Part shown: positions 15,896-62,620 of the stretch, piece by piece | Numbering within the stretch: the stretch's first letter is position 1 | Layout of the letters: each line of letters begins with the position of its first letter | Assembly (NCBI GenBank): GCA_014871385.1 | Contig: CM026426.1 | Location: forward strand, 71,638,756 to 71,702,755 | Length of the DNA: 64,000 bases | Direction: 5' to 3' | Source of the DNA: Ceratodon purpureus | Taxonomy: Eukaryota > Streptophyta > Bryopsida > Pseudoditrichales > Ditrichaceae | Position numbers and translations under genes: made by a program | The notes under the pieces: generated by a model | Told to the model about the DNA's origin: nothing | What the model saw: the letters and a program-made list of their open reading frames with translations, nothing else | Databases searched by the model: none

Positions 15896-16150
15896 ATGAC
15901 CATATTCGTTATTTTGAGACAATTTCAGAACTTTGAGACTTTTAGAAGAAAATTTCAGCAATTGTTTTTAGACAATTTGAACTTTTTTTTGACTTTCTAA
16001 TTATAGATTATCCTCGACTCGACAATAATCTTCCCATATATAGTCAAAACTTTATGACAAATGTAGAATCAATTAGGAAATCAATGAAAAAGCTATAGTT
16101 AAGCATTAAATTGAAACTATGAAAAGTCTCAATATAACAAATATGGTGTT
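15896..16150. mobile_element. 255 bp MITE with Element 2-like terminal inverted repeats
   Basis: The left end (ATGACCATATTCGTTATTTT then GAGAC) and the reverse complement of the right end (AACACCATATTTGTTATATT then GAGAC) match at 21 of 25 positions, and both closely match the 26 bp ends of Element 2. AAAA flanks both sides (15892-15895 and 16151-16154), a 4 bp duplication like the GATA of Element 2, although AAAA is low complexity. It has no coding capacity. It holds one degraded copy of the 21 bp palindrome at 16008-16028. It is best read as a non-autonomous derivative mobilised by an Element 2-type transposase. Confidence 0.75.
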
Positions 16151-16739
16151 AAAACACCATCTAGACCATTGTCCTCATTGCCGTTCTATAAATTCTCAAA
16201 GCAATGTGTGATAATATCATAGAGAAGATGACCTCCTTCAAGTCAAGTGTGAATCAATCACCATCTAAGAGTAGTCATGTGCACAGATCGTATACAGAGA
16301 CGAACACAATTCCAACTTCAGAATCCCCTAGGACTTCGTCATCACATGCCTTGTCCGGTGAACATACTTGAATCATCGCCCTTCCACAAACTGGTTTTAA
16401 TGGTTAGAATTACATGTCGATATTACAATCAACATTTGAACGTGGCAACTAGAGAAGCTGTCGCATCGATTGCCCTCATGGCATGATTGGACAGATGTGT
16501 CGTATGACCATCCATGCATGGATGGTCTGTACATAGGCATACGGTATGTATCCTACCGCAAAGAAAAAACTCTGTGAAAGTCTGCTATGGAAGCCAGAAT
16601 AGATGCCATCACAATGGAGATCGGATAGACGCAAGAGACAAGGGAGTCATCGAGGAAAAGGAATCTGAGAAAGGGTGCGACTAATGAGGGCGAGGGGGGA
16701 AAATCGAAGTGAGGTAGGAAAAAGGAAGAGAAGAAGCAG

Positions 16740-38689: not shown

Positions 38690-38823
38690 ATTACCTATTC
38701 CTCCCAGAAGTGCTAGTCATCCAAGAGCCTCACCTATAAGAGAGACATGTCAAGATTCAACTCCAAATCGCGGAGGTGATGCATATAACAATTGTCCTCC
38801 AACATATCAAGGATCCGGCGATA
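38690..38823 (+). pseudogene. Pro/Gly/Tyr-rich reading frame interrupted by Element 2 (left part)
   Basis: The frame from 38695 reads DKLPIPPRSASHP and then GGDAYNNCPPTYQGSGD up to the GATA at 38820-38823, where Element 2 begins. Weaker coding-like sequence with stops (YDDHYSTHRDGNH) extends left to about 38240. It continues in phase at 62417 (see that entry). Product unknown; repeated PP-Y-G-G-D motifs suggest a low-complexity structural or TE-encoded protein. Confidence 0.55.
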
Positions 38824-38849
38824 AACACCAAATTCGTTATATTGAGACA
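38824..38849 (+). repeat. Left terminal inverted repeat of Element 2
   Basis: Starts AACACCAAATTCGTTATATT and ends GAGACA; 25 of 26 positions match the inverted right end. Additional inverted copies of the TTATATTGAGAC core occur at 38858-38870 and around 38913-38935, typical of subterminal transposase-binding sequence. Confidence 0.88.
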
Positions 38850-39129
38850 ATTGGAAGTCTCAATATAATGGTTCCACTAAAAATAGTAAAATTTTCCGTT
38901 CACTAAAATGAGACTATCCATTATATTGAGACTCTCAATATTAAATTCCTTCTAAACATGTGATCGGAAATTTGGAAATATAGAACTTGGTGTGGTATTG
39001 CAGATATCATGTAGATTAAAAATGGAACTTTGATGTACTTTTAGAATAACGAATGCAGAACTCACTATTCTAGTAGGCAAGGAAGTGTTTGTTTCTAAAA
39101 AATTGTCTCAAATACATGTCATCGACGGA

Positions 39130-40120: not shown

Positions 40121-42967
40121 TCACTCAGAAGATGCACCCCCATCATCTTCTGCTTGGTAACGATCAATGGAAGCTTTAATAATTCCGCTCTGTAAAACTG
40201 GAATACGCATCCGTGGATTCAAAGATCCCTCTTTAATACGAGACTGCCATGAAGCCATGATACAATCTGTATGGACCCAAGTCGGGTCAAATGCGGGATC
40301 TTCACGCCAAGTATTACCATTGTTGGAGTCCCATCCCTCGTAAGTTTCTGCGTCCACGTGAAGAGTTGTGGCTGGAGTCCAATATTGTACTGAAATTTCA
40401 TTTGGATGGTTACGAACTGAATTTGGATTAGTCAGAGCTCTCCCTATCCAAACAGGTGCTCGATTGTCTTCATCAGGTGGTCGGATAGCGAGAAAGTACC
40501 CTGCATAAACATCTCTTCCAACACGAAACGACTCTCGAGGACGATCTCGCCTACGACCAACATGAGGTGCATCTTGTTCAAATTCTTCTCGCAAAGTTCC
40601 ATCTGCTTGGAACCGATCAATCTCCGAAGGCGCGATCCTTGTATTTGGCCAAAATCCGTCACGAAGATGGTCTACTTCGGGGAGTGGAATATCTAGAGCT
40701 GCTTTCACACCCATCCAGTAGTACTTGATGGGTTCGATTGATCTTCGAAACTCTCCAGACAAGTCATCATCTGCCATTGCACTCCATAAATTGATGAATG
40801 ACTCGAGACCTTTGCAAACCTCGTCATGTCCACGCATTTGCCGAGGTATTATAGGGTCTGGATCACCATGAGGCACGTTCGGGGATCCACTCTGAGTCTC
40901 CTTCCAGAGTCGAATTCCACCGCCTTCTCTTGGCAACCATTCATTATCAGTACAGACGAGCTTGTATTGCATCAAAGGCCAACCATCGTTATCCATGTAG
41001 AACTTGAATTGTTGAGCGTTGCTATGGCCTTCCAAAGCATCACGCCCAGTGCACAAAAAACCATCAACAAAAGACTTGAAATCAGGGACTTCTTCAATGA
41101 GATGTGGAATAACCGGACAAGACTCTGCATCCATGAAAGACTTCATGAGCAATGGTAAGGTGGGGTAGTCTGTCCCCCGAAGCTTGTAGCTCCATCTCCC
41201 AAAAAGAGCATCAATGTCATCGTGTGTATGCCCAACAATCAAGAAGTTAATATAGACCTCCTTGAATACACCATGGAATGTTAGAAGTGAGCAAAAGGCA
41301 AACACATATCGGTTCTTGTTATCGCCAGATGCATTGTCAAGTTGGAGATTCAGCATCGGCGGGAGAGGTTTTGCCTCAACCACTTCATTGGAGATGGGGG
41401 GCACAGATGATTCACACATCTCAGCACTATCGAGCAATGCCGAAAACAACGGAGCTGATCTTCCTCCATTGAAAAGCTCCCGAGATGAATGTTTCGGTGG
41501 CTCTTCCAAATCCCGGAGCAACTTCGCAATGGAGCCAATGGTGTGGTTGGAATCACTAGGATAAACATCTAGTCCATAATGTGCATATCTCACGTCTCCG
41601 TGACCGTGAGCAATCATCCCCGTAACAGAAACGGGGAGCTTCATGAAGGAATCCATATTCTTACTTTTATGAGAGAAATGGGGAGAAGAAGTCTTCGAAT
41701 GATCCATTTTATCATGAATGATAGTAACACTCTTCTCTGGTTCTTTCTCTGAAATAAAGCGGTTCGCATAATACACTTCGCGATGTGCTTTTTGACCTGC
41801 AAGATGCATGTCTAATCTCTTCTGGCACACGTCAAAGGGTCCCGTACCCCTAGTGCATGCTGCTCGTTGCCGCTTCAGCTCATCACAGTCTCCACATCGA
41901 GCAAAGTTGTCTCCGCGTTTCTTAGGAGAGAATTCCGAGAAGGATTCCTTCCTAATTTTGCTCAGACCACTAGGTGAGATATCTTTTAGCCCCTGTTGCT
42001 GATTACCTGCGTTTATCTCGGAAAGAGTGCTACTCCAATGAAATGAAGATGGAAGGGACATGGCCACAACTTTCTCTCCATTGTCCCTTGTTCTTGACTT
42101 GTGCGGCATATGATCCGCAGTTGTCTCTAGAATTGTCCTCAGTATGGCCGTTGCTTGCAGAGTGTGAGATTGCGGTTTTTTAGTTCCAAGATTCCCATGC
42201 GGTTCTGCGCGCTTTCCACTAGAGGCTGCCACCTTGTATCGATAATAAGACAATTTGTGCAAACCCATTATAGAGGTCCACGCTTTAGGACAAACCTCCA
42301 AACCTTCAAGGGTAATCTTCTCTTTTCCGGTAGAGTCTATATGTATTTGTTTATGCACATCGAGCAATCTGTGCTTCCTATGATAAACTCCACCCTCAAC
42401 GTATAGTTCAGATCTAAGAGCAGCAATAATATCTCGGGGAAATGGTTGAAGACAGTTACTTGAGCAACAAGACTGTGTGGAGACATGGGTAATGGATTCA
42501 TTACTCAGTAGCGCTTCTTTTCTAGGAATCTTGTCTGGATTACTTCGCTCTTGTGAACTATCGTAGGCACGGGATCCTACACGAGGACGCTGACCTGCCT
42601 GAGCAATCTCAAGATTGAACTTGTACATTTGGTCGTGGTCATGGAAACTGGCTCCGTTGAGGAAGGCACGAGATGTTGGCCACCCTCTCAATTGCCATAA
42701 CCAGTCCAGAGGAACATCCTCTGGGTGAAACGATTCAACAATAAGAACTGCGACATGGTCATCACCAAGTGGTTGATTGTTACTGTTAATGACCAGAGAA
42801 GGGTCAACGTTATGGCAAATCCCTCTTGCCACGTCTGTACCTGCCTCGTTTCTGAGGATAACACATTTTGTCATCCAGTCTTTTCTAGAAAGGCCTTCGC
42901 AGTCAGCAATTCCAGCATGTCGGGCAACATTCTCCGGTCCAACTCCAAGACCGTCGGTCTCAGCCAT
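40121..42967 (-). CDS. Transposase-like protein with LDN-DNKNR and VGHTHDDID motifs, 948 residues (Element 2)
   Basis: One uninterrupted 2847 bp frame. The ATG at 42967 follows an acceptor-like ATTATACAG, so a 5' UTR intron is likely. The N-terminus is an unrecognised globular region. A Cys pair motif lies at FARCGDCDELKRQ. The catalytic-type core is HDKMDHSK (Asp about residue 418), LQLDNASGDNKNRYVFAFCS (Asp about 544) and FLIVGHTHDDIDALFGRWS (about 583). This arrangement resembles the DUF7869-type RNase H-fold proteins, which I regard as transposase- or integrase-like; the family name is from memory and moderately certain. The C-terminal domain (VGRDVYAGYFLAIRP, MASWQSRIKEG) is conserved in two relics in the window. 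It is the presumed enzyme mobilising Element 2 and the related MITE. It is divergent from the ParB-type gene. Confidence 0.75.
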   Translation of the reverse strand: MAETDGLGVGPENVARHAGIADCEGLSRKDWMTKCVILRNEAGTDVARGICHNVDPSLVINSNNQPLGDDHVAVLIVESFHPEDVPLDWLWQLRGWPTSRAFLNGASFHDHDQMYKFNLEIAQAGQRPRVGSRAYDSSQERSNPDKIPRKEALLSNESITHVSTQSCCSSNCLQPFPRDIIAALRSELYVEGGVYHRKHRLLDVHKQIHIDSTGKEKITLEGLEVCPKAWTSIMGLHKLSYYRYKVAASSGKRAEPHGNLGTKKPQSHTLQATAILRTILETTADHMPHKSRTRDNGEKVVAMSLPSSFHWSSTLSEINAGNQQQGLKDISPSGLSKIRKESFSEFSPKKRGDNFARCGDCDELKRQRAACTRGTGPFDVCQKRLDMHLAGQKAHREVYYANRFISEKEPEKSVTIIHDKMDHSKTSSPHFSHKSKNMDSFMKLPVSVTGMIAHGHGDVRYAHYGLDVYPSDSNHTIGSIAKLLRDLEEPPKHSSRELFNGGRSAPLFSALLDSAEMCESSVPPISNEVVEAKPLPPMLNLQLDNASGDNKNRYVFAFCSLLTFHGVFKEVYINFLIVGHTHDDIDALFGRWSYKLRGTDYPTLPLLMKSFMDAESCPVIPHLIEEVPDFKSFVDGFLCTGRDALEGHSNAQQFKFYMDNDGWPLMQYKLVCTDNEWLPREGGGIRLWKETQSGSPNVPHGDPDPIIPRQMRGHDEVCKGLESFINLWSAMADDDLSGEFRRSIEPIKYYWMGVKAALDIPLPEVDHLRDGFWPNTRIAPSEIDRFQADGTLREEFEQDAPHVGRRRDRPRESFRVGRDVYAGYFLAIRPPDEDNRAPVWIGRALTNPNSVRNHPNEISVQYWTPATTLHVDAETYEGWDSNNGNTWREDPAFDPTWVHTDCIMASWQSRIKEGSLNPRMRIPVLQSGIIKASIDRYQAEDDGGASSE

Positions 42968-43105
42968 CCTGTATAATGAAGAACATATTATTAGCGATGA
43001 CTTAAGATGATTGAATGCATGCTAACGCGACAGAGAGCAATTTTTATACAATTCGTACATTACAAACGAGTTCACAAATTTTGCACAATAAGTACGAATA
43101 CTTAA

Positions 43106-43946
43106 TTATCCTCGAGTCGAGGATAATATCATAAAAAGTATATATACCAAGTTGCAGCAATAATTTAAATCCAGTATAGCATAATTCTACATATTCACAG
43201 TCATGACTCGCAAGCACGTCTCTCTTGTGGGAAGGCACTAATTCATTGAGTAATACATACATCTCAAATTCCTCTTACATCGATCCATTTATACAAGATC
43301 GTATCCTCGACTCGAGGATACATCTGTAATTTCTCAGTACTTATATTAAGATCTCTATTTGTAAGGCGAGCAACTTTCTACTTTTTAAAGATGATGAACA
43401 TGTGAACACTCTTCTGTATAAACTATAGATGCATTTGATGTACGATTCTATGTCATGGAGTTACTGATGTCTTCTCCATTTTGTAGAAACTCATTTCATT
43501 TAAATTTTAATGAAAGACTGGATGATCCATGCTCGTGAACTCTAATTCAATGTTATTTAGTGTCCTGAGTTTTTAAGAACGTGTATTTTTATCCTCGAGT
43601 CAAGGATAATTTCCTACATTCTGGAGCACAGACTGCACTTCTAACTCTCAACGAACAACCCATATTATTATGTCTAAATAATTCATTAAATCTTAAAATT
43701 AGTTTAACATTACGTATCCCGTATCCTCGACTCGAGGATTCTGCTCTGTACACATCAATTATCGAGATCGTTATCCTCGACTCGAGGATAATGCTCTGTA
43801 CACATCCATCATCCATGATTGAGAATTGTTATCCTCGACTCGAAGATAAAGTATTAGTATATGGAAATATAGGAGCTATCTCAAATGTTTGTTATTAAAG
43901 AAGCACACTTTCCAAATCCTTCAGATTATCCTCGAGTCGAGGATAA
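43106..43946. repeat. Palindrome cluster I: seven 21 bp palindromes upstream of the transposase-like gene
   Basis: Unit: arm TTATCCTCGA, central G or C, arm TCGAGGATAA. Copies: 43106-43126 (perfect), 43301-43321 (perfect arms with GTA/TAC ends), 43589-43609 (one change), 43721-43741 (GTA end, one break), 43771-43791 (perfect), 43829-43849 (one change), 43926-43946 (perfect). Copies at 43721 and 43771 are each followed by CTCTGTACACATC, so part of the cluster is a short tandem. The cluster probably lies in the 5' UTR intron or promoter of the minus-strand gene. Confidence 0.9.
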
Positions 43947-44149
43947 TCCTACTACATCCTTTGAACCTAATACCAAAACTTACTAAAAATAGAAAGTATG
44001 GAATTTATGCATTCCAATCCAAACTTTGTCGATGTTGTACGAAGCTTAGGTCGAACATCATGACTGATAGTGGACTCAAACCTACTACACACTTCAGCAT
44101 CAACAGTCATCACAGAATGAAAGAAGAGCACGAACAGGACTATACAGTG

Positions 44150-45415
44150 AGCTAATATCGAATCTTGTGTACTCGATACAAACTTCAGCCAATAAAGAGT
44201 TCACTGGACCTAATGCAAAGTACAGTCTAATGAATATAACGACATTACATAAGATGGAAGCAAGCAAGCGAGCAAGCTAACAGGAGATTCAAGAGAATGT
44301 TGCACCAAACATACGTGCACGGTGACCGCAAGTGAGCTCTAAGGTGTGCCTCCGGAAAATGAAGGAGGAAAAGACTGAACGCTTCGACCGACGGAGAGGT
44401 ATGGTACAAGTTCCTCCAGAAAATAGGATCCCTAATCGGAGCAGCCACCGAGCCGAAATATCAGCCGCCACATTAAAGGAACTTTGTCTCCCATTCACAT
44501 AGTCCAAGTGGAAAAGTCAATGACGATTCCCGTCCCATTCTTTATAGGATATATATGGATTAACGTATTCAATGTTTTTGTCCTATGTTAGGGATATTCT
44601 AGAGTACGGAAAAATCGTTTACGAAGTAATGTTCTGCTCAACCGAATAGTTCCCTTCCAAGATAAGGTGGAATTTTCGAAAAGTAGGGGTTTCCTTCATT
44701 ACGTAATATTTCCATGCGACATTGAAACTTAATGTGAACACGATCACATTCTCAACGAAGATTATTAATCCCTAAAAGGATATGCGTAGTGGATGTGTTT
44801 TGCGGTTTACCCATGTAACTTATTTATGCATTGAAGAATGGAAAATGCTGTGGTGGAGTTGAATTTTTCGGTGGAAGACAATGTCAGTACTATAAATGGT
44901 CTATATTTTATCCAAATTTTCTGGAGTACTATAGAGCAACTGGACCACTACCCATTTATGCAACAAATACGTATAAATGGGCATTCAAGACTGCATAGAA
45001 TAGACATACTAATTCCAATTTTTTTTCAAATGAATTCAAAATATTCTTCACCGTCGTGCAAAAAACTATAAAGAAAACAAGAAATCGAAGTAAATAGAAA
45101 TTAGAGTATACAGTGGAATAATAGTGCAAAGAAAAAAATCTTCATATTAAAAATGCAAATTACATATTTACATGCATTATACTAAATATCTATAGATTAT
45201 AGGATTATAGTAAAAATGTTCTACTACTAAACATGTTTGATTTCATTTATTGAGGTAAATTCGTTGTACTTCTGGTTTTAAACCTATTAGTGCAAAAATA
45301 TTATGAATCAGATACAAAATTCTTACAATATTTTATTAATTAAGACATAATATAGAATGACCTTTATTACCAAAAATAGTATCAATTGAGGAACAACATT
45401 CAAGGTCCAATCCAA

Positions 45416-45470
<55 letters not shown>

Positions 45471-45659
45471 ATTTATTTTTGTATATAGAAATGGACTTGA
45501 AGAAAGATATTACACTACAATATCGACTTTTGATGACTCAATATACAAAAAAAATTAATAAATAAACGATGTAAATTTTTAATGTAAAAAATGATAAAAA
45601 TAAAATGGAGGAGAAAAATGGAAGCTTTCAAATTTAAAAATATAGTGTGGATTACCTTC

Positions 45660-45729
<70 letters not shown>

Positions 45730-48700
45730 TGAAAGAAAAAAAAGTGGTTTTAAAGGAACACATACAAATAATATAGAATTTTTTAGTGATTCAATAAACT
45801 AAGCATGTAAATGCATAATGAATGTAGATTTTGATGAAAAAAATTTTAAAAAAAAAAAAATGAAATAAAAGAAATGTAAGCATTCAAAATTTGGAATAGA
45901 GTAGAGAAGATGGAGGTAAGAAACATTGGATATTTAAAAACAAAATTATAATTGATACTTGAATGTTTTTAGTCCTGCGCAAAGTTAAATAATTCGAGTT
46001 TGATGCACGAATTAAAAAGCAGGAAAAGAAAAAAGTACTGAAAACAAATTAAATTAAATAGAATGGTGAACAACTTTAAAATATATTGTAGACATTATAA
46101 CTTCTAAAGGAACAGAAGCATTTAAAAATATTATTGTTATCAACTAAATCTTTGAAGCCTTTATTCATCATAACTGTTTAAAAAGAGCTCTTTTTCAAAA
46201 GATGGTAGATTCTGCAGAAACGGAGTTTTTTAAAATGAATCTATCTTTGTAATTGTGAAAATGTTTTCCAGTATGTTCATAAAACAAAATTTAAGTATAA
46301 TAATACAGAAACCTTTTACAAATGCGTAATACATATTCTTAGAAAAGACTTAAGAATGATATTGGAACTATTTGAACCTGGCCAAATTTTAAAAAAACCA
46401 CTTTCCTAACATTTAAATATAAAAAGTCAATCAAATGCTTTAAAAATTTCAATTTAGAAAATAGGAAAATTTTTATGAAATCCTATTGCATAAAAAATAT
46501 AGAACCATATGAATTTTGAAGCAAAAAAGAATTCACTGAAATAAAATTTAAAAAAATATATAATTTTAATTCCAACCAATTAAGTAATGCACGAATAATC
46601 GTGGCATAGCAAAATTTAAAACGTACAATCAAAGAGGAATGATTGTAAGATGTAAGAGGTAAATAAAGAAATTAAAGAAAATCTTCCAAAAATTAATATA
46701 TACATATATAAATAAACTTAATATTTAAGATCTAGATTTAATTGTTATTCCCATTTTAATCATTTAAAAAATTTATTATGATTATTAGTAACTGTATTTG
46801 GTATTTCCATTATTTTTTAATAGAACAGATATGGTGTCGTAGCGCAATTAAAACTAACTCATTATCTGTAAACTTTTCGTCTTTAAAATTTTTATTTATC
46901 GAACTTAGCACTTAACTATTTGAATCCTAAAAAACATGATATATTATTTTCTATGAATCTTAATACATAATTATTAAACATCAGTGAAATAATTTAGAGG
47001 CATTAAGAAATTTTAAAAAGCATTTAATTTTTTAATACGCCAAGCTTGTGGTAATATAAGATTTGTGCTTGTGATGTTATAAGGCCAAAAACATGTTAAT
47101 GAATATTTATTGCATTCTAAACTTAAAAAAAATACTTCATACATATTTTTTTAATTATAATTTTCTAAAGATATATAAAGATTTATAGTTATGTTATTTA
47201 AAACAGTTGCAATTCTGTAAAAAGAACAATAATACATAATATTTCAGTTTAGATTTTATTCTGAAGAAAAAACTTAGATTACATGTCCATGGAATTTGAA
47301 TTTTTTTATTGTCAACATGTAATTCTTTTTTTGTCACCAATAAATGTTCTAATTTAACGGTTATTAGTATCCTAAATATAATTGTAGAACTACAATTTCA
47401 GATCCAAAATAGATGTAATCAAACATTCACAATTAGAATAACATTTCAAAATTAATGCACAAATTAATAATACATACATGAATTCAATGAACTAATTGCA
47501 TATAAGAAGGAATAGCTTCAGCAACTACGGCATTCAGATATTAGATAGTGGCAGTGACTTGGACATTCCAACTGTATTGTTACCACACACCTTAGCTGCA
47601 ACGACCACTTGTTTGAACTCTATAATAAAGAATTTAGAATGACAAGGATAATTAATAATAAAAACACTTCTTCATTATTTTGAGACAATAGATTTCGAAT
47701 GAAATAAACTAGGTTTCAATGCATAATTTCAAAATAAGAAATTAGTCTTACACATCATAAGGCATTAGTGTTTGCTGAAGGTCATTTTGCTCGTCTCTTG
47801 AAAGTTTCTTATCACATTTACAAGTACTTAAAAAATTTGGAGGACCTACATCTGATTGTTCCTTGACAGCAAGTAAGAACATATATTTTTGAAAGATAAT
47901 TAGTAAATAAGAATGGTTAAAAAAATGGAATGGTCTAATTTTTTTAATTATATGTATTGTTGTAGTAGAGCACGAGCAGAGGCTTAGTATTCTGGATATT
48001 CTACATTATTACGTGACCCAAATCAAAGTTTATCACCATCTTTGTGCACCTGTATCTCATTTCCATCTACCATACACTCAGCCACCAAACGTTTGCACTG
48101 CATTTGAAAGTACAAAAGTAAAATATAATCATTACAAATGCATAAATAATTGCCATACTTGTATTTAATTGAAAAAATCTTAATATTATTGTACGAATCA
48201 TTACTTAAAACATTAGGATAAGAGAGTATTGCACGATGATTTATAGAGTATTAAAAAACAATCGTTCTAGCATTTAATGCAATGCAATAATGTCTTGAAT
48301 GAACAACATGTAATAATCATTATATTAAAGTAATTCCTATGAGCCTACATTGGCTTTAATGTTTAAAGGAGCATTCGTAGCAAGTCAAGGGTCCAATGAT
48401 ACTGTGGATCAATGTGACAATGCTGGTTCACTGATGTGCAATTTTGATCACGATGACCTCTCCGAGTCTTCATGAGATCGATAACTGATTGTTCTTCGCA
48501 TTCAATCACTTTCTCCACGTTCCTATTATGGATACCGCTTACATACTTCTTCAACTATTTGTAATACAATGATAAATGAATATATTAAATTTAAATGAGA
48601 AAATTAAAATGAAATTCATAAAGCATTAAAAGAAACATACTATTCACAAAGATTAATTTATTCACAAACAAATCAAATGTTAATTCAAATTAAATTGTGC

Positions 48701-51185
48701 AGCATAGCATTATAAATTCTAAGTTTCACACTCTTAGTAAAGAATTCTCATTTACAAAAAAAATGTTTATTAATGATTATTGCGTTCTTTAATTATAACA
48801 CTTATTATTTACTTTCTGGAACATTTATGTCTATGTTCAAGCTATGAATGCGTGAATTGAATATATCTTTAAAAGAATTCAAAAACAACAAATGTTTTTC
48901 GAATACAAACGTAAGCTAACTTTCACAACTAAAATAATATTTCAAAATCCAAGCACAAATTAATTATATATTCATAAATTCAATAAACTTATTGTTTATA
49001 AAGTAGGAACAGTTTCAGCAACTATGGCATCTAGGTCCTGTAGCAAAGTAAAATAGGAAAATTATGCATTGATATCCGTACTATGATATATGCAGAATTG
49101 TCTGCATATGCAGAATGCCTTCTTGTTACATTTGAAGCGTAAGAAAAAAAACTTGCCAAAATGTTTGTTTCCTGTTTTATAAAGCAACATGTATTATAAA
49201 TAAGTCATACCATTGAATCATATACATATGAAATGAACATTTAAGTTGCTTTGAATATGTAAAGTGTATTTATGTGTTTAATACGTTAAAATATAAGTAA
49301 TGCAGATTGTTAGAATTACATAATTAATAAATTTTTAAATTAAATATGAATTAGTATTGTATTCAGTTAATAACATCACAAGACCCTTAACATCACAAGA
49401 AGCTTATAATACCACAAGCCTGTATTAGAAAAAAATTATATCATTTTCCAAATTTTGAAACGTACTATATAATTTTGTATATACTTGTTGATTTTGTTTT
49501 AATAATTATTCAAAGTATTATAAAATAATTAATCAAATGTGACTGATGTAAAGCATAATTGTGTAAAAAAAATGAATAATAGAATAAATTTCCATAATGA
49601 ATTACTTCAAATACACTACAGCACTTAATTTGTTATAAATAGAAGCTTTGAAGTCCCCATACAATGGATCCTCTAAATTCTATTTTTTTTAATATTTGCT
49701 AGAAAGATAGTATCCTTAAAACTTATACTTAAATTAATTATTATCTTTATACGGTATTTTTTAAATTTTGAAACTTCATTTTTTATTCACATTTAAATTT
49801 TGAAACTTTATTTTTTATTCACATTTAAAGTTTTTTAAAGTTTATTTATTTTAATTCCACATTTTATTTTTGACATTCTTCCATTTAATTTCAACTGTTC
49901 CTTTTTTAGAAAGTCATTAATATCCCACCTTAATTTCTCTATTTTTAATTACTATATGTTTCATCAATTTTCTCTTCAATCCTATCATCAAACGTCCATT
50001 CCTAATTTATAAGCGTCACAAAGAATTAATTTTTTATTTTTTATTTTTTATTTTTATTTTTATTTTTTATTTTTATTTTTATTTTTTTTAAATTTTTATT
50101 TTTTTAATAAGTACTTAATTATTATTCTTTAAGAATTTCATCCCCAACTCTAACGTACAACATTATAAATTCTGAATGTTGCTATTCCTCCTCTTTGGAT
50201 TTCTTTAAATGTTTATTTTTTGTTTTTATAATTTTTTTTAATAAATTTTTTTTCACCTTTTCGTCCATATGTTATTTTACATTCTAATTGCTTATATTCC
50301 TTTTTTTTTCCCTTTTTTAAAAAGAAATTCTGGATTTTTAAAACCTTTTTATGTTAGTTTTAATAATTTGAAGAAATTTTCTTTTCCTAGTCTTCCTTCC
50401 TATCTTTTAGATTTGGAATTCTTACATTACTCTTCGTGTTTTTTTTTTTTATTTAAATTGTACAAAATAAAAAACTACATATTTAATTCATTTATTTATT
50501 TATTGAATTGAATAATCGGAATTCCATTTCATTAAAGAATATGCCACTTCAAGAATTTCATCAACCATATAATCGATTTATATTAAATAGATTGCAATAA
50601 TTTAACTCTTGCACCATCAATTTGTAAATAGTGCAAAATTTATATGTTAGTATATGAAATAATAGTCTATGTTCAAGTCAATGTTTGAAGTGGAAGTCTC
50701 ATAAAGATTCCTTGGAATTTACTCATATTGAACATAGATGTTGAATAGTTATTTAAATTGTTCTTTTATTTAAAGGTGTTTACGTAATTGTCAACCATTG
50801 TAATACAATGGTTTCAAGATTTCACCAATTTCCATTAATTTTTAATATTTTCCATCAAATTTGTAATATTACTTGGTATCCAATTTGAAAAGCGTCATTA
50901 CATTAGAAGTTGTTTACAAAAGCCAATCTTTAAAAGACATAATCCAGGTTATTAATTTATAAACATTCAAATACTTAAAGCTAATTAAATTTAAGTTTTG
51001 TTTGAGGCATCAATTGAAACATTATATAAATAGAAGAATTTCCGAATACCATTGCATACTTCTAACAAAGAAGTACATTTCAAACAAAGAACTATATTTA
51101 AAACATGATTTTTGATTTATAACATGTATGTATAATTCTGGAGGAAATTTTTTTTCTTTAGTCAAAAAAAGAATGTCGTAGTAGA
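44150..51185. other. AT-rich central region of Element 2, no clear gene
   Basis: From about 44500 to 51180 the sequence is very AT-rich and without intact coding frames. It includes two (TA)n tracts (about 45417-45469 and 45661-45726) and a TTTTTATTTT run near 50030-50110. A pair of ~150 bp direct repeats at 47390-47550 and 48890-49035 share TTTCACAACT/ATTCACAATT, CAGCAACTA(C/T)GGCAT and neighbouring sequence. A diverged copy of the Element 2 end (TTATTTTGAGACAATAG) lies near 47674-47690. It may be nested old insertions between the two divergent genes. Confidence 0.5.
47750..48556 (-). pseudogene. Possible decayed spliced gene fragment, family unknown
   Basis: Three short coding-like segments on the minus strand are preceded by acceptor-like sites: 48556-48363 (KKYVSGIHNRNVEK, CTSVNQHCHIDPQYHW), 48099 to about 48030 (CKRLVAECMVDGNE, VHKDGDKL) and about 47868-47750 (SDVGPPNFLSTCKCDKKLS). 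They stand out as more protein-like than their AT-rich surroundings. I recognise no family, and the exon order does not join into one clean frame. Confidence 0.25.
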
Positions 51186-51968
51186 AGTTGTTATTTAAAA
51201 ATAATGATTTCCATTTAATGCCCGGGGCCAACGATGGGCCCGTTCAGAGGGCCGGGTTCGGGATAATGGGGCCCGTGCTGACGTGGAAGTCTCGGGGGTC
51301 GAGGACATCGTCTCCACCTTCTCGTCTTTCCCGCTTCGTGTCTCCTCCAGTTGCGTTGTTGTATGTTTTGATGCTCCATGCGGGGGGACGCTGCTGATGT
51401 TGTTGTTGTTCACATTTCTTTCCGTGCATTGAGTTTATTGCTCTCCCCGTTGTGTCCTACGGATTAGGGTATGGAGTAGATTACTGAGGAGCTGCGTTCG
51501 AGTGAAGGGAGGTACTCTGCCGGGCTGCGGTTCTAGGGTTTACAGGATTGCGTTTACAGTTCCGTCGTGGGAGACTTTCTCTACTACGGAGGTCGGCGGG
51601 GGTGCAGAGAGGAGGGGCAGAGAAGCCCGTGCTGAGTCTACTGCTTTTGTTTACTTTGGGTGCCGTTCAATCTGGGAGCGATGGCTGCGCAGATGAGTAC
51701 GCGGTGATCGGCTTTGCGTTTGCGTGTGTCCTCGCGACGAAGTGCACAGGAGTTGTGGGTCGGAGGTTTGCTCAAACAAGTACAGGAATCAAACGAGGTG
51801 CGTCACTTCAACATCCGTTGCTGTTTTTCCTTTCTTCATGTGAATATTTTCGGTGTTCTATCAGTGTTGCATTTGACTGTGTTGAGCGGACTATGGTTCA
51901 GGCTGACTGTGGACGTCGTGGAGTTCCGCAGTTTTTGCTCACGGTTTTCAACATCGTCAAGTTCGAGG
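51186..51968 (+). promoter_or_regulatory. GC-rich presumed promoter and 5' exon of the ParB/methyltransferase-type gene
   Basis: Composition switches abruptly from AT-rich to GC-rich at about 51219. GATTAGGG and CTAGGGTTTACAGG telo-box-like motifs occur near 51463 and 51531. A donor-like GTTCGAGG-GTAAGC ends the block at about 51968, and a good acceptor (TATGTGTACAG) precedes the coding exon at 53698. A 1.7 kb 5' UTR intron would carry palindrome cluster II. The ORFs inside (51548-51982 and others) have no recognisable motif. Confidence 0.4.
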
Positions 51969-52713
51969 GTAAGCTTCCCTAAAACCCTGAACCCTAATTT
52001 TGCGTCTCCGGAGTGAATGCACCGTTTCGTTATATTTTTTTAAAGATACTCTTGCATCTGCCGAAGTAGAAATTCATTTCAGCATGATTAATGTTCTCTT
52101 TGTAAATTGTTTGGTTCTGTGCATCGAGTCGTTGAGTAAGAGAATGCTTGATTTTGATCTGCCTCTTTGTGCATTCAATTAAATCTGACATGCATTGGGT
52201 CGTCGTTTCTTGCATGCCTGCAATTGCAATACAGTTTTTATAGAGACACTACTGGAATACATAGGTTCAATGTGCGGAGCTCCTGGTTGTTAATTATCGT
52301 AGGTGTTGGAGTTGGAAGCGCTGTTCAGAAATCATTAGCATATTCCATTCAGAGGAGAAAGTAGTGCAGTTGGGGGTCTCCATATACTTTTGAGGTACGT
52401 CAGAAAAATTACCGAAGTCGATCACGGAATGGTTTAGATGCTTGCAATCTAGATGAGCAATACAATTTCTGAGGATTATAGACTACAAAGGAATACATAG
52501 GACACTGCACATCATTGCTGTTTCTATGCCGACCTCTATGTTATCTTTAGATACCGAGCAAAACTATCTTCAATGGAAAACATGGCACATACTTACATAT
52601 CCGATAAGAACAATTGCATACAAAAACAATGTCGAAGAATAACTTGATATTGGGTACACTGACGTCTTAGCGAGGTGTATTACGATTTTCCATAAGAGGT
52701 AACCTGACCTAAA

Positions 52714-53640
52714 TTATCCTCGAGTCGAGGATACTGGATTCGGCGGAGAGTAGTCTTCAGTATCCGGAACAGTAACCTAATTTATCCTCGAGTCGAGGAT
52801 ACTGGATTTGGCGGAGAGTAGTCTTCAGTATCCGGAACTGTAACCTAATTTATCCTCGAGTCGAAGATAACAAAGATGCTATAGTTGAGTTTGAGCTTAC
52901 TTAGAATGTGAACTAAATTCTCCTTGAGTCAAGGATAAGAAAACCAATTTCCTCATTTTTGTCAGAAAATGTTATCATTTGATTTTAAACCTACAACTGT
53001 CCTCTCTAAATCGAAATCACCCAACCAGAAATTAAAATCTATCCTCGAGTCGAGGATATCCCACGACACATATTATTTGTAAAAAAGTGTACACGACACA
53101 GAGTGAAGAATTATAAATCATGGTGTGCAGCAATTTCCTACAGAAATGAAAGAATTGTCAAAAAGATAGGAACTGAAAAACACCAACGTTACATTCTCAT
53201 GTTGGTCATGACTCGAATCTTTGTAACATCATCCTCGACGAGAGGATAATCCAAAATTATACAATCAGTGAAGAAATTTATCAACAGACTTGAAAGTAGG
53301 TTCGGTAAAATGATGTCCTATCTTCGCTGACCGTCCTAACCAAACCGAATCTTGTGAAAACATTCAGTTAGGGAACGTTTATTCCTTGGAGCAACAGACA
53401 TGTCTAGAAGAGTTCATAAGTTAGACGTTTGATACAATAGTAAGACAGTTAAATTAGCATTAAGAAAGAGGTGAACAATGAGCAATAAAAACCTTTAACT
53501 GATATTGCTATCCTCGACTCGAGGATAGCTGAAACATCTTTCCACACATAGAATCATGTCTCTGGTCACTCAATCAGTTCTAATCAATAGAAGCGTTTCC
53601 ATCACAAAATTGTAGCATTATATCCTCGAGTCGAGGATAT
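52714..53640. repeat. Palindrome cluster II: eight to nine 21 bp palindromes upstream of the ParB/methyltransferase-type gene
   Basis: Same unit as cluster I. Copies: 52714-52734, 52782-52802, 52850-52870, 52918-52938 (degraded), 53039-53059, 53229-53249 (degraded), 53508-53528 (perfect, C/G outer pair) and 53620-53640 (perfect, ATATCC/GGATAT). The first three, and the start of the fourth, are spaced exactly 68 bp apart. The tandem spacer includes CGGAGAGTAGTCTTCAGTAT. The last copy ends 66 bp before the start codon at 53707, inside the presumed 5' UTR intron. Confidence 0.9.
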
Positions 53641-55225
53641 GAAGTCAAGGATTTCAAGTCGATTAATAGGTGCTAATTATAATTGTTATGTGTACAGGAA
53701 CTAGGCATGGAGGAAGACGATGGTTACGACTATGGAGGTAGCGCACCGTTTTTGGCAGAGTTTGAAAACCCGTACTCAGACAGACCATTTATTGAGGATG
53801 GAGCAATTAATTACGGGAAACTGTGGAGGTTCTCTGACTGTGTTCATAGTTGGACGTTAGCTCCATGTCGGCTGAAGAACTACGTCTACTTGCTCCACAG
53901 GGAGAAGGACACGGCACCCTTTCTATCTCTCCGTATTGATGAGAAGGTTACAATAATTGAGACGTTTCCCCCTGACCATATTGGCATTACTCTATCAGCA
54001 ATGTTTGAGGATGAAGCCATGAACGGACATATTCACACAATCATTGTGAAGATTGGAGAGGACTGCGGACCTCAATTCGACATACATGGTCTACTTAAGA
54101 AACTTACAGGACCTCCTCTTGAGACTCTACGTCCTGAATTAGAGAAGCATCACTTACCTTGGTTGAGAACAAGTCCTGGAGGTGTTTATCGGAGAATCTC
54201 ATCCATATATCGAACATTGATGGAGTGGGCCGATAACGTGCCGAAGAGTGTCCCGGTCCTGAGTAGAAGAAACCGACAACTTGACGCAGGCTCGGGAAAA
54301 GACATCTCTCCATTAGGGACACAAGGGAGCCAAACTATGGATAACTCGAACCCCGCCTTGCCAGCCGCGGCAAGGAAGCGAAAAGCTGTAAATGAGAAGT
54401 CATCCGATCGAGAGGAGAAACGTCCGAAATCCACTGGTGGCGGATCAAGCTCTGCTTCAGGCCTCACACAAGTCGATCGAAGTAAAGGGAAGAAAGCTGT
54501 TCTTGTTCCAGAGTTTGAGAAGTATGCGAAGCTCCAATCCGACTTCTGGATTGACTGCAAGGAATGTTACGTTTTTGGGCAGCAGTCATATAGCGTAGAT
54601 ATTAACCAGTGTGTTTTGGCAAAAGATGAATACATCATCCGCCGCCTTCAGAGGGAGATAGTAGAAAGCGTTAAGATGCAGTTAATACAAATTGGACACC
54701 AAGAGCAACGCCAGAAAGTGTGCTTGACACCAGTGGACAAAGATGGTCATCTATTGAAGAAAAAGCCTTCTAGTTGGGAAGAAATTAAGAATGGCCGCTT
54801 CATGATTATCAACGGCCAACACAACATTACCGCCTCAGCAGAGCTACAAGTAGGGGGATGTGGAGAGTCTCGGAAGAAGGAGCTACAATTCTGGGATGCC
54901 TACATTGTTTGGACACTGGATGCAGCAAAGCTAACACAAATATCACGATTCTATAATTCCGCCAATCACTTGGAACATGTTCAGCCCACATGGGAATGGC
55001 AACTGATTGCTGGACGCAGAATATGGAACGTCTGGAAGCGACCGAGTGATAAGGAGAACGAAAATGAACGACGCAAAAATGAATCAGTTTTTAATCCGGT
55101 TGACTATGCGGTAAGTGCCCTGAACTATTGCCTTCTTAAAATGATTTTTTTTTCAAGGGAGGTAAGGTAGTTCGTTCTAAGTAGAAGTAGCAGTGTTTCC
55201 ATTCTTTCTAACGATGTAGATATAA

Positions 55226-55378
55226 TTATCCTCCGGTCGAAGATATTTCAGCTTCATAGGGCCAGGGTTGTGCAAATATGAATTTTTCAGATGTATGACC
55301 TCCAAGAAAATAAGTACTAGGACGTATAATATATTTGCTGCATATTGTACTTTGCTATTATCCTCGTGTCAAAGATAA
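55226..55378. repeat. Two degraded palindromes inside intron after the ParB-like exon
   Basis: 55226-55246 (TTATCCTCCGGTCGAAGATA) and 55358-55378 (TTATCCTCGTGTCAAAGATA) are diverged copies of the Element 2 palindrome, both within the intron that begins at 55111. Confidence 0.75.
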
Positions 55379-57058
55379 GTCTGTGATGTATTTTGTGTTA
55401 CTTTGTGTCAAGTTATACAATGTCTAATAGGGATTTTCTAACAAAACAAAGGTGTGCGTTGGTAATGAAACAGAGGTTTACACAGGCAATAATTAGTCGA
55501 TTCCAGGCGATTAATCCAAATAAAGACGGAAAGAGCGTGGTCTCTCATTCAGATCTGAAGAGTGAAATCCAGATGATCACTCTGGAAGACGAGCATTTTG
55601 CTATGTAGCAAGAATTCATAGAGAGACACCACACCGGCGATCTTGTCAATCCAGACATAGGTAAATTATATAAAGAGAAAGACGGATTCAAGCTTAATCC
55701 CAGATTCTACCTAAATCGGGAGTTCTTCAAACACTTTGGCCATTTCACAGACGCAGATTTCAAGGTATACGTCCAGCACCTTCTTGGACGCACACCGGGT
55801 TGGACCCAGGTGTACCCAAAAGTCACAGTCTTCAAGGCCGCGGATGTCCATCCTTCACACCACACTAGCCACGAGTGAGTGGAGAGGAGAAAGCGCAAAC
55901 GCATCGTCGTAGAGGAGCTCGTGGACATTAATAGAGAGCTCAGCAATCTGCTAGCGAAAGACGGATCAGTCGATGCTGAAGAGTGGAAGAAGTGGAAAAG
56001 GTCCCACAGATTTTCAAGCGGGACATATAGCAGCCTTCTCTACCTGCCTGGTAGAGAATATTTCTCAAAAAGATTGACAAACGAAGGAAAGAAGAAACGG
56101 GCTCAAGATTATGTGGAGAAGTTCCCATTCGTTTTGCCTTTCTTCCAGAATTTCCTGCGTATGAAATCCAATTTGCCCGAACGGTCGAGGAAGTGTAGAC
56201 TAAGGACTCAGAATAGTGTGTCCCTTTCTCTCGGGAAGAACTGGACCTACAATGACTCCAGGTTTCTAGGTCTTGCAGTCATGGATCTAAGGCATTGTCC
56301 TGTAGGAGAAGAATCAGAGGAGGGAAGTAACAAGACTGAGCTCTCCTCGTACGTTGATAGAATGGTTAAGAAGCTGGCGGAGCCATCGTTCATGGATCCT
56401 TCTGTTTGGATATGGATCTTTCGCAACGAAGATGGGGTAATAAGGGGCGCACAGGTGGCGAAGTAAATGTTTCCCGGGTACGAAGCCTTGCATTCTATTT
56501 ACAAATCTTCAAAGAATGAGAGGCTGTATGGTGCAAAAACACGTGCCGCACCAGTGAATGTGTACCTTCTATTTCTCCTCAAACTTGGAGATAAGCGGGC
56601 AAGTTCTCTTCGGCAGAATGTGAAGAAAAGGTTCACGGTACCGAACGAAATTGATTACTACTCTGACTATGGGGGATATAATGAAGTTAAGTACCGGTTG
56701 TTTGCTTCGGAGCTTCGGATTGAGTTCTATTTTGAAATCCTGCGACTTTTCAGCACAAGCGGAGAGAATGTCCTCGGCATACACACGGGCTCAAAGTTTA
56801 TGATTGCGGCCATGGTAAGTATTCGATCAGTCTCACATTTGTCTCTTTCTGTTTTCATGGTTCTTGGATAGTATTTGTTTAAGATATTGGCATTCTCTTC
56901 TTGTTTTTCATGTTCCAATACGCGTACATTATTCTATGATGCTCCGATGCGCATACACTATTATATCATATTACAGTATCCGCAGTCTTTCTTATCATTT
57001 ATAATAAACGATTGAGTTTTAGGTGACATAGCTTATATATTTAAATTGGTCAAACTCA

Positions 57059-57330
57059 TTTTCTTCGAGTCGAGGATATGTTTGTCAGCATAGTTGGAGC
57101 AGCCACCAACCTTAGCGGAGGTTCTGACTGGACAGGACAGCCTACTTGTTCGCTTACTAGTGGTCGTTTCATGGTGGACTGGATGGAAGTGATTATCCTC
57201 GATTCGAGGATATAGTCATGGATTTGAGAGGGTTCATAAACTTGTGCTCAATGAAGCTGTTATTGGATCACTCTGAATTCAGGAAGTCTTTATATTACAC
57301 TAAATCATTGTATCCCCGAGTCGAGGATTG
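57059..57330. repeat. Three palindromes inside the methyltransferase-domain intron
   Basis: 57059-57079 (left arm degraded, right arm TCGAGGATAT intact), 57193-57213 (TTATCCTCGATTCGAGGATA, nearly perfect) and 57310-57330 (GTATCCCCGAGTCGAGGATT). All lie between the donor at 56815 and the next coding segment near 57400. Confidence 0.8.
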
Positions 57331-59316
57331 TCAGTTCATATTTCTCTTTTAATCGGTTCCATCAAAGTGTTTGTTACGCACGCCCTCAATATTTCCTACT
57401 ACGGTGTAGTGTGCAAATTGCGTGAGGCTGCATATCTGGAGAAAAAGACCCTGTCAAAGAATATCGACGTCAATGACTATCTTCACATCGATTGTCCATA
57501 TGATCCGAGAGCGAAATCAGGCAGTCCATCAGTCATAAGAGTATCTCAAATCACTATGGTGGATCAACGTCCTGTTTGAGCCTGTCGTGGTTCAACATCA
57601 ACTATGCCTTCTTTAGTGGGAGCGGGAGTAGATAGGATGGAAGAAATTGAAGACCCTGATTCTGCCTACAATGACACAAATCCAGAAAGCGAGCTCGTCA
57701 AGGAAACCCAACAGGATTTTAACATTACTGCTGGCTTCGACCAGTACGGGTCTCAACTGGAACCAGAGGGAGATGAATCTCCGGAGGACCAATCATGGAA
57801 TGATGACAACGAGGCAATGAATTCTCCGGACACTCGGAGAGTGAAGCCTGCGGTTCTGTTGCCTCCTGAAGATTTAGAAATCCCAGATCCTACGCCAGAT
57901 CTAAATGAAGTTAGGATGGGCAAAGTTGACTCACTTGTACCAGTATCGAAGGATTTGAATCCAGGCGTGGAAGTTCAAGCTTCAGCAGGATTATTGCCTG
58001 GACTCATTACACTAAGTGACTCAGAATCTGATGGCGATGAAGATGATGGTAGCACAGATTCTGAACGTGAAGATCCAAGCGATCTTCCACTTGAGAATTG
58101 TCCAACAAGTGCTTCTCCAGTTCATGATTCAGTCGCGGTGGAGGTACGAGTGGAAAACTGTGAAGCAAGTGAATTCTATAATGCTGCAGGAAAGGCTCTT
58201 GCTATAGGCGTGGTAGTGCCAAAGGGCGAGGGGGAGTGGTGGACGCTCTGTGAGCAGAGAAAGAAAAAAAAAGCAGTGGAAAAACTGGCTGTCCAACAGA
58301 AGTTGGAAAGACTGCAGGAAGAGTTGGAAGCATACAAGAGGCTACAAGCACAGGGGGTACTTGTCGGGAGTTCGTCAGCAGCACCGGCTTCTTCAGATGT
58401 TGTGTTGGGTAGCACGGACGAACCTCCTATGGAAAAGGAGGATGTTCTTTTGCCTGGTACCGAAGTAACAAATCCGGTCGAAGGTGAATCAGAATCACTC
58501 GTACCTGCTCTTTCCCTGGATGTAGCCGGAGTTCCACCTGTAGCAGAGGAGGTGGTTCCAGATGTGGTGACATCCTTGGATTCGGGGGATGACTCCTTGA
58601 AGTTCTCGTTTGAACATGATCTTGAAACTCATCCAATGTCACACGAACAGGAAGTACTTACGCCATTGGATGGGGATCAGCCGATCATCACTAAGCAAGT
58701 CCCAACAGAGGATTTTGTGGCGCCACCTATTGTTAGTACCGAGGATGATGTCTACGACATTGAAATCGGTATACCAAGTTAGGCAGACGGGGTACAGAGC
58801 GCAATGTCTCCTACGGAGGTAATTACTCTCACTTGTATATGCTGAATGGAGGTTTGTTAATCTTAAAATAATACGTGTCATGTCCAAACCTGTTTCATCA
58901 TTTGTAATTTCTTATACAAATGAAGTGGATTGACAGGATTGAATCTGGACTATTTTGTTTTGGAGTGACGCTGGTAACCGCGAAGTGCTGAGGGTTTTTG
59001 TAGATAGTTCACCCATTTTGATCTAGGTCATGGACAGTATACGGGTGCCTACCTCGCGGTTGTAATACCATTTTTCTTTAATCGTTATAAATATAGGCTT
59101 TTCATTTGTTTTGAAGGCATGTTTTTTTAATCCTCAAATGAATATATTGGAAGATATTCACGCCCAACCCCTCACGAACTTACATCCACCGATAGAATAT
59201 GGGAATGCATTTCTGAAGTAAGTGTCATAGTGTCTCGCAAACTATATAATTCACTTATTTGTAGACTTCTTTTTTTTCAGGTAACTTCAGCTGTTTTGTT
59301 TTTTATTGTTTAGCAG

Positions 59317-61059: not shown

Positions 61060-62416
61060 TAACATGTGGAAGGCGTATAAAGATATACGTGTTTTCAAAA
61101 TTCTGAAGATTGCTCTAAATATATAGGAAGAGCAAGAGAAATTACGAGGACATATTTTTTTATACTTAGATATTTTATTTTAAATAGAGTATAGTGCAGT
61201 GAGACGTTCTATCTTCCACACTCGTAATGCAGAGAGTGCACATATTTTTAGTCTTCACATTACAAAGTGTGCACATTTTTTGGGTGTCCTCAAAGAGACC
61301 ATCATTACTTTTCATATTCAATAAATATTGGCTGGTCCAGATTTCCAACTGTTCAAATCCTTATTTGTTTTCCAATCAATACCATGGAATTGAAATGTTT
61401 TGAGTTAAGCTTGAAGAAACATCCATGATAATAGGGTGAGCAATCTGAAAATGTTCATTTGGTCTAAATATTAAAAAAATTGTGGATCTACTCAACATGT
61501 TTTGATACGAAGCATATTTACTATATTTAGATTATTTTTGTATGGCTCTTAGACATTCCATGTCTTGCAATGTAGAAAATGCACATTTTTTCACCTTGCA
61601 CTGGAACGAGTGCACATTTTTTACACTCTACGGAGACACTAATCATCACTTCTATTATTCAATGAATGGTACATGATGGAATATAATTCAAAGGCCTCAA
61701 ATACATATATTTTCGCATGTTTAGTCATGCATAAGCCTTGTACATGTTGCATCATATTTTTTCTTCATAGTGGACTAGACTTCATTCATACGTTTTCCTC
61801 CTAAAAAAAAAAAAAAAAGTTACCCATACCATACCATGGAATTGAAATGTTTTGAGGAAAGCTTCAAGAAACATCCATGATGATTTCTCCACAATAATAG
61901 GGGGAACAATCTGGAAATTATCATTTTGTCTCAATATAAAGAATATTGTGGATCTACTCCACATGTTCTAACACGAAGCATGGTTACTATATATAGATTA
62001 TTTTCATATGACTCTTAAACATTCCATCTCTTCCAATGTAGGAAATGCACATTTTTTCTCCTTGCACTATAACGGGTTCGCATTATCTAGTCTATAGAAG
62101 AGAAACTGATCGTCACTACTATTATTCAATGATGGTTCCATGGATTATAATTCGAAAGTCTCAACTACATATATATTTTTCCGTGTTCACTCATGCATAA
62201 GCCTCATACTTCTTGCATCACATTCTTACTTCAGAGTGGAGTAGAGTTGCTCCATTTGTTCAGGAAAAAAAAAAAACAAGAATTTTTTCCGTACCTTACC
62301 ATGAAATTGAAATGTTTGAAATGGAGGTTCAACAACTATCCTTGATGTCAACTCCGCAATAATAGGGATGTAGTCTCAAAATGGTCATTATGTCTCAATA
62401 TAACGAATATGGTGTT
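61060..62416 (+). repeat. Right subterminal tandem repeats of Element 2 (~460 bp unit)
   Basis: A unit beginning ACCATGGAATTGAAATGTTT starts at about 61381 and 61836, and in shortened form at 62299; an earlier partial copy covers about 61190-61330. Each unit contains GTCTCAATATAA-type sequence resembling the terminal inverted repeat (61446 weak, 61926 good, 62391 the true end), then GTGGATCTACTC, CATTCCATGTCTT and GCACATTTTTT blocks. The last unit is cut off exactly at the element end. Confidence 0.75.
62391..62416 (-). repeat. Right terminal inverted repeat of Element 2
   Basis: Reads TGTCTCAATATAACGAATAT then GGTGTT on the + strand. GATA follows at 62417-62420. Confidence 0.88.
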
Positions 62417-62620
62417 GATAATAGAACTCCTCCTCGACATCGGGGACGTGGCTGTAACATTACCCCGCCTTCATATCAAGGACACAGCGATTATAGATCA
62501 ACTCTTCCGAGTCGAGGGTATGGTGTGAAAAGTACTATTCTACGTCAATTTAAAACATATAGCTTAACTCCACCTTCACGCCCTGGAAGTGGTGATAACA
62601 AAATCCCTCCTCCAAGTTGA
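62417..62620 (+). pseudogene. Pro/Gly/Tyr-rich reading frame interrupted by Element 2 (right part)
   Basis: It continues the frame of 38690-38823: after one GATA, AAT-AGA-ACT-CCT reads NRTPPRHRGRG, then NITPPSYQGHSDYRSTLPSR, YGVKST and PGSGDNKIPPPS before a TGA at 62618. TPPSYQG on the right echoes CPPTYQG on the left, and GSGDNK echoes the reconstructed GSGD-NR junction, so the two halves belong to one repetitive protein. Function unknown. No gene is recognised from 62621 to about 63160. Confidence 0.6.

Follow-up and report, generated by a model that had tools for sequence, protein, structure and literature searches.

A 21-bp palindrome repeated through the non-coding DNA of a DUF7869 transposon family in the moss Ceratodon purpureus

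Introduction

The VANDAL elements of Arabidopsis are the described case of sequence-specific self-recognition by a transposon. VANC motifs are found in their introns and in intergenic and terminal non-coding DNA, where they form diverging arrays (PMC5735166, PMC10398659). The motifs are 8-9 bases long, the word 'palindrome' does not occur in PMC5735166, and VANDALs are Mutator-like elements (in part after PMC6446971). In bacteria, sites of the ParB type measure 16 bp (PMC10770331), the KorB clamp can act at a distance (PMC11790492), and VirB of Shigella, a ParB-type protein, is a transcriptional antisilencer working from palindromic sites called virS (PMC10770331). Here we describe a transposon, termed Element 2, in a stretch of 64,000 nt (the window, C6:71638756-71702755) of the 362-Mb genome of Ceratodon purpureus, in which copies of a 21-bp palindrome lie around and within two divergent genes. 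The gene name KC19_VG078600 suggests that contig C6 is the V sex chromosome.

The moss element resembles VANDALs in that short motifs lie in introns and other non-coding DNA, form tandem arrays that differ between related elements and are specific to their family, and in that the element encodes a second protein. It is unlike them in the length of its sites, 21-bp palindromes instead of 8-9 bases, and in its gene 1, for which a Pfam search with E up to 1 returned DUF7869 only and no Mutator-like transposase. With ParB-parS, Noc and KorB it shares several palindromic sites in cis, close to genes, and a predicted ParB/sulfiredoxin-fold domain, here in gene 2. Those systems are bacterial, however, whereas this is a eukaryotic transposon with sites of 21 bp instead of 16 bp, and the residues of its gene 2 differ from the typical ParB signatures. 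The pairing of a ParB-type protein with palindromic sites likewise recalls VirB and virS, although VirB is a bacterial regulator and a similar mechanism in the moss would be putative. In En/Spm, the TNPA sites are short, non-palindromic and subterminal; an auxiliary protein with many short sites would be common to both elements, but the moss sites are internal dyads. In the present case a moss transposon of another kind has a layout similar to that of VANDALs, with long dyad sites and with two subfamilies whose sites differ entirely in one genome. The published literature searched contained nothing on DUF7869, on the palindrome sequence or on a C. purpureus transposase, and no relevant publication on ParB together with DNA transposons and palindromes, or on intron palindromes of moss transposons, was among the literature matches listed.

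Results

A search of the window with the consensus TTATCCTCGANTCGAGGATAA (21 bp) gave 19 matches at up to three mismatches, compared with a mean of 0.00 over 100 dinucleotide shuffles, and 21 at up to four mismatches, of which 20 lie within Element 2 and one in a miniature inverted-repeat transposable element (MITE). The Element 2 sites form four groups, of seven (43106-43946), eight (52714-53640), two (55226, 55358) and three (57059, 57193, 57310). An earlier note on this DNA had counted about twenty copies in just these places, with one more in the MITE at 16.0 kb, and only its 'eight to nine' copies at 52.7-53.6 kb had to be corrected to eight. Its statement that exons and end regions are free of them was borne out as well: none of the 20 sites lies in an exon, where exon limits are deduced from homology and from GT/AG sites, and the ends of the element bear a different palindrome (Table 1). 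The sites assigned to the 'upstream regions' of both genes are indeed there, but these regions are probably introns of the 5' untranslated region (5'-UTR), since a splice acceptor directly precedes both start codons.

The same note had read the outer bases as varying in a compensating way. This holds for the outermost pair 1/21, the sole pair to vary symmetrically, where four of six double changes are complementary; the pair is complementary in 14 of 21 copies (shuffle p 0.0006, the copies not being independent of each other). As a general claim it is weak, with five single changes at this pair and the other pairs near-fixed: pairs 2-10 vary little and are complementary in 15 to 21 of 21 copies. 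In the six pairs flanking the 21 bp complementarity is no higher than in shuffles, and the symmetry ends with the 21st base.

In the whole genome the exact core of the palindrome occurs at 218 places (reversed control 0), and the main exon of gene 2 is matched 93 times; ten of these matches are full or near-full, at 68-100% identity, and many others are near 41%. Fifty of the 218 places were listed against elements: 31 belong to three clusters next to gene-2 copies, and the other 19 are isolated. All 14 isolated places that were fetched sit in the middle of a MITE, and one more of the 19 falls in a MITE match. For the places examined we could thus reject a common dispersed repeat unrelated to the elements. 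The palindrome had been called private to the two genes of Element 2; it is common to a subfamily of full elements and their MITEs.

Four copies of this subfamily hold 105 sites, upstream of both genes and in introns B and C of gene 2 (the fetched stretch of one copy, on contig C5, stops short of intron C), with none in coding sequence. Array periods differ, with 68 bp in the window and in a copy on contig C4; one C5 copy has periods of 104 and 53 bp, another of 51 bp. Between the window and the C4 copy, 313 of 336 site bases are identical as against 1002 of 1254 in the 50-bp flanks, and for the second C5 copy the figures are 137 of 147 as against 420 of 532, the sites having been picked by likeness to the consensus, which is somewhat in their favour. 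The third copy offered no aligned sites for this comparison.

A sister subfamily, B, whose gene 2 is about 40% identical to that of the window, has another 21-bp palindrome, TTTAGCTCAC-N-GTGAGCTAAA. Three gene-2 copies near 40% identity, fetched blind to their palindromes, all have it ahead of gene 2 as well as in intron B, and none has a site of the first type. It occurs exactly at 446 places in the genome (control 0). A fuller B copy, fetched as two stretches with about 5.6 kb between them unread, again has the two genes in divergent orientation; its sites precede each gene and also occupy introns B and C, and an array of degenerate ones lies 3' of gene 1. Such a B-subfamily array, with a 54-bp period, was seen just 3' of gene 1 at C5:700000-706500 (695-1093 in the reverse complement of the fetched stretch), where the window element has no palindromes. 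None of the 69 sites in five B loci lies in coding sequence, and a cross-check at up to four mismatches found neither palindrome type in the loci of the other. A fourth locus, at 29% identity, contains decayed sites resembling the first type. In a gene-2 tree, midpoint-rooted and hence without a fixed direction of change, the four B copies group together in a single clade (support 1.0) and the first type is spread over several clades. Over 56 sites of the sister palindrome, pairs 2-9 are complementary in 47-53 and the pair next to the centre in 37, the lowest value of any inner pair.

Element 2 spans 38824-62416 and has inverted ends and a GATA target-site duplication, as cut-and-paste DNA transposons of the DDE/RNase H-fold type do. 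For gene 1, modelling predicts an RNase H-like catalytic core with three invariant acidic residues. The predicted structure of gene 2 includes the ParB/sulfiredoxin-fold domain. Its main exon has no Pfam match, Pfam and NCBIfam searches of 19 gene-2 relatives returned nothing beyond single weak matches, a sequence search of the PDB gave nothing convincing, and the best hit in a profile search of PDB sequences with the second large exon was an unrelated enzyme (E 0.11). Two stretches are conserved in gene 2, GQH[N/S]ITAS and YNS.NH, and by eye their place in the fold fits that of the ParB signatures.

Sequences compatible with the palindrome, or close variants of it, also occur in introns of gene-2 relatives on public contigs, so that 'private' is too narrow beyond this genome, too. 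These relatives are predicted proteins that we read as running past a splice donor into the intron. Forty-nine tails were set by rule, of which 12 were shorter than 8 letters and were left out. Among the remaining 37, 17 are compatible with a perfect palindrome and 20 with one that has up to one mismatch. With 11 hand-picked segments, four of them noticed beforehand, the 48 segments include 19 perfect fits and 24 at up to one mismatch, compared with 0.00 and 0.15 in 60 shuffled sets, in a test that left the base before the centre free and used two words, one derived from the same data. Restricted to the window's own word, the test leaves 10 perfect fits among the 48. Identity to the window exon is 37-48% among the 14 intron-B proteins that were compared.

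At pair 6/16, concordance holds for 19 of the 20 motifs that could be read in these tails, although five have nearly the same tail and two were added by hand, and all tails of the G/C variant fall in one clade of the gene-2 tree, which also contains the C/G form. With a free 3-base centre the moss genome has six G/C-type places (reversed control 1) and ten mixed ones (control 0), figures that are not fully comparable with the 218 C/G places, counted with a stricter centre. Two of the ten mixed places belong to MITE matches, and six lie next to decayed gene-2 fragments. Mixed sites thus exist, and complementary change at this pair was set aside as evidence. Decayed gene-2 fragments beside mixed or G/C-type palindromes (C6:41086159-41088036, C6:50647845-50650055, C6:95113941-95116441) perhaps represent a third subfamily.

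Table 1. Positions of the palindromes, genes and ends of Element 2, and of the MITE, in the window
Feature	Position	Strand	Remarks
MITE with Element 2 ends	15899..16155	none	matching ends; 40 genome matches scored, window included
Palindrome in MITE	16008..16028	none	2 mismatches
Left target-site duplication GATA	38820..38823	none	sequence, repeated at 62417-62420
Left terminal inverted repeat AACACCAAATTCGTTATATTGAGAC	38824..38848	+	inverted match to right end; ends common to MITE family
End-region palindrome TTATATTGAGA-C-TCTCAATATTA	38921..38943	none	motif distinct from 21-bp palindrome
Gene 1, 948-aa protein	40121..42967	-	Pfam DUF7869; RNase H-like (DDE-type) transposase model
Presumed 5'-UTR intron of gene 1, seven palindromes	42970..44327	-	acceptor TATACAG/GATGG seen, donor GTATGT inferred
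Palindrome	43106..43126	none	0 mismatches
Palindrome	43301..43321	none	outer bases GTA..TAC
Palindrome	43589..43609	none	1 mismatch
Palindrome	43721..43741	none	3 mismatches
Palindrome	43771..43791	none	0 mismatches
Palindrome	43829..43849	none	1 mismatch
Palindrome	43926..43946	none	0 mismatches
Presumed 5'-UTR intron of gene 2, eight palindromes	51971..53701	+	acceptor TGTACAG/G seen, donor GTAAGC inferred
Palindrome	52714..52734	none	unit 1 of 68-bp tandem array
Palindrome	52782..52802	none	unit 2 of 68-bp tandem array
Palindrome	52850..52870	none	third with 68-bp spacing
Palindrome	52918..52938	none	fourth with 68-bp spacing, 3 mismatches
Palindrome	53039..53059	none	outer bases CTA..TAT
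Palindrome	53229..53249	none	3 mismatches
Palindrome	53508..53528	none	outer bases CTA..TAG
Palindrome	53620..53640	none	outer bases ATA..TAT
Gene 2 main exon	53710..55110	+	model residues 290-422, ParB/sulfiredoxin fold
Gene 2 intron B, two palindromes	55111..55428	+	ends inferred from homologues and GT/AG
Palindrome	55226..55246	none	4 mismatches
Palindrome	55358..55378	none	3 mismatches
Gene 2 second large exon	55429..56812	+	three in-frame stops in window copy
Gene 2 intron C, three palindromes	56813..57380	+	3' end approximate
Palindrome	57059..57079	none	3 mismatches
Palindrome	57193..57213	none	1 mismatch, centre T
Palindrome	57310..57330	none	4 mismatches
Gene 2 last part	57382..58782	+	one in-frame stop at 57577 in window copy
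Right terminal inverted repeat GTCTCAATATAACGAATATGGTGTT	62392..62416	-	pairs with left end
Right target-site duplication GATA	62417..62420	none	sequence

Discussion

We favour, as the probable explanation, that the palindromes are subfamily-specific dyad binding sites for a dimeric protein encoded by the element, likeliest the gene-2 product, and acting in cis. The strongest evidence for a dimeric protein is that the sister subfamily has a wholly different palindrome in like places. Two subfamilies with two palindromes in corresponding positions argue for a factor that differs in its dyad specificity from one subfamily to the other. The candidate binder is gene 2, because its predicted fold is that of palindrome-loading proteins. 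The reading draws on the sites, their absence from coding sequence, the differing array periods, the two palindromes, neither of which was found in the other's elements, and the common gene order, and in part on the predicted fold of the gene-2 domain. The earlier note had proposed a dimeric DNA-binding protein or a cruciform or hairpin function; the first fits best, but outer-arm compensation, on which that proposal leaned, is not its strongest evidence.

In such a mechanism, a dimeric protein of the DUF7869 (DDE-type) transposon would bind dyad sites across the non-coding DNA of the element. The binder would be the gene-2 product, loading at the palindromes with its putative ParB/sulfiredoxin-fold domain, and it would act in cis on its own subfamily, on full elements as well as on MITEs bearing one site. 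The outcome might be genes kept open against silencing, or an organised element chromatin, with VANC for VANDAL elements and the ParB-type VirB against H-NS as models. Dimeric binding by gene 2, use of CTP, spreading and anti-silencing are the putative parts of this scheme. More tentatively, and with a rather low probability, the system may be a eukaryotic counterpart of ParB-parS used for self-recognition: a ParB-fold protein would load at private palindromes, spread as a clamp and block silencing, and protein and palindrome would co-evolve, so that sister subfamilies are not cross-activated. If true, the favoured explanation would add an anti-silencing system independent of the first and show ParB-type proteins at work in a eukaryote, its candidate binder coming from a fold known for palindrome loading in bacteria, and two natural specificities would be available for direct comparison of binding.

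Several observations weigh against the favoured explanation. Compensatory changes in the outer arms are scarce, pair 1/21 showing two non-complementary double changes besides the single ones. The MITEs, scored for 40 of 410 first-look candidates, have identical 4-bp target-site duplications in 12 of 14 copies checked; in the 39 scored matches other than the window's own, 793 of 819 palindrome bases (96.8%) are conserved compared with 7017 of 7130 other interior bases (98.4%), and the palindrome ranks 177th of 184 windows in conservation. Four CpG bases account for the deficit (140 of 156); at the remaining 17 positions conservation equals that of the rest of the interior (653 of 663, 98.5%), and a subset of 36 matches, leaving out three exact-palindrome copies, gave a like outcome (730 of 756 against 6471 of 6581). 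Selection on the palindrome within inserted MITE copies was thus not found in the 39 scored matches, and since it is no better kept than other bases, inserted MITEs appear to decay freely, the site being kept in the consensus only. In the gene-2 relatives, the distance from the splice donor to the start of the motif is 17-30 nt for 19 of 25 matches, which come from two different introns, a spacing that DNA binding alone leaves unexplained; short tails favour small distances in this count, and the window sites nearest a donor are 115 nt (intron B) and 246 nt (intron C) away. Gene 2 of the window (53710-58782) is interrupted by in-frame stops at 55606, 55876, 56464 and 57577; copies with an open main exon were found elsewhere in the genome. 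No helix-turn-helix was found, by sequence only. Finally, typical ParB signature residues are GERR and EN.QR, and these are not kept in gene 2, where GQH[N/S] stands for the former and YNS.NH for the latter.

The palindromes could instead be internal sites for the transposase, the gene-1 product, aiding synapsis or self-regulation like subterminal repeats of other DNA transposons. The DDE-type model of gene 1 would suit this, as would the single site kept in the MITE consensus, which should require transposase in trans only. We nevertheless regard it as unlikely: the ends bear another motif, TTGAGAC and its palindrome, and the sites cluster around the genes rather than the ends.

Control of mRNA splicing or stability by RNA hairpins, the intron sites forming 9-bp stems with 3-nt loops, seems less likely still. 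It would be consistent with all 20 Element 2 sites lying within the four presumed introns, with the spacing from the donor in two introns of the relatives, with z below -3 for three of five folded sites, and with the lowest inner complementarity in the sister palindrome at the centre-adjacent pair, which cannot form in an RNA stem. The intron positions and this weak pair are why the explanation keeps some weight. On the other hand, gene-less MITEs bear one central site, the B-subfamily array 3' of gene 1 is outside any proposed intron, and centre bases G and C both occur upstream of each window gene, so that neither strand is preferred there.

That the palindromes have no function, having spread by tandem duplication in non-coding DNA and owing their symmetry to template-switch correction of quasi-palindromes, is very improbable. 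Local tandem duplication is plain and the MITE copies show no extra conservation, but the sites recur in like positions in copies that have diverged and in the subfamily whose palindrome is a different one, compatible palindromes lie beside gene-2 relatives, and sites have fewer changes than flanks. A signal by cruciform or hairpin DNA itself, read by a structure-specific host or element protein, would agree with symmetry retained while sequence differs between subfamilies, but is less probable still given short arms and a sequence that hardly varies within either subfamily, a constancy that a purely structural signal would not require.

Some further features of the window may be mentioned. 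The TTATATTGAGA motif recurs near the ends of Element 2 (38837-38943, 61929-61939, 62392-62403) and of the MITE (15909-15919, 16127-16137), with one-mismatch copies elsewhere too; it likely marks transposase sites. The spacer between the two genes (44561-51190) measures 6.6 kb with 24.5% G+C and long AT runs, and contains no palindromes even at up to six mismatches. Rfam gave 0 matches at gathering scores across 38500-62800, and no confirmed relatives were found in viral and prokaryote collections. The reading frames at 26-33 kb, among them one with a SET domain (30552-31151, E 1.8e-15), may be part of another element; a search there for private palindromes of like kind found none that stood out. 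Element 2 also includes, at 59439-60110, a reading frame, perhaps captured by the element, that matches an NLI-interacting-factor-like phosphatase domain (E 2.1e-9), and a repeat of about 466 bp lies at its right end (61351-62414) in two to three units. A further DUF7869-like fragment, spotted by eye among the reading frames, lies at 14178-14648.

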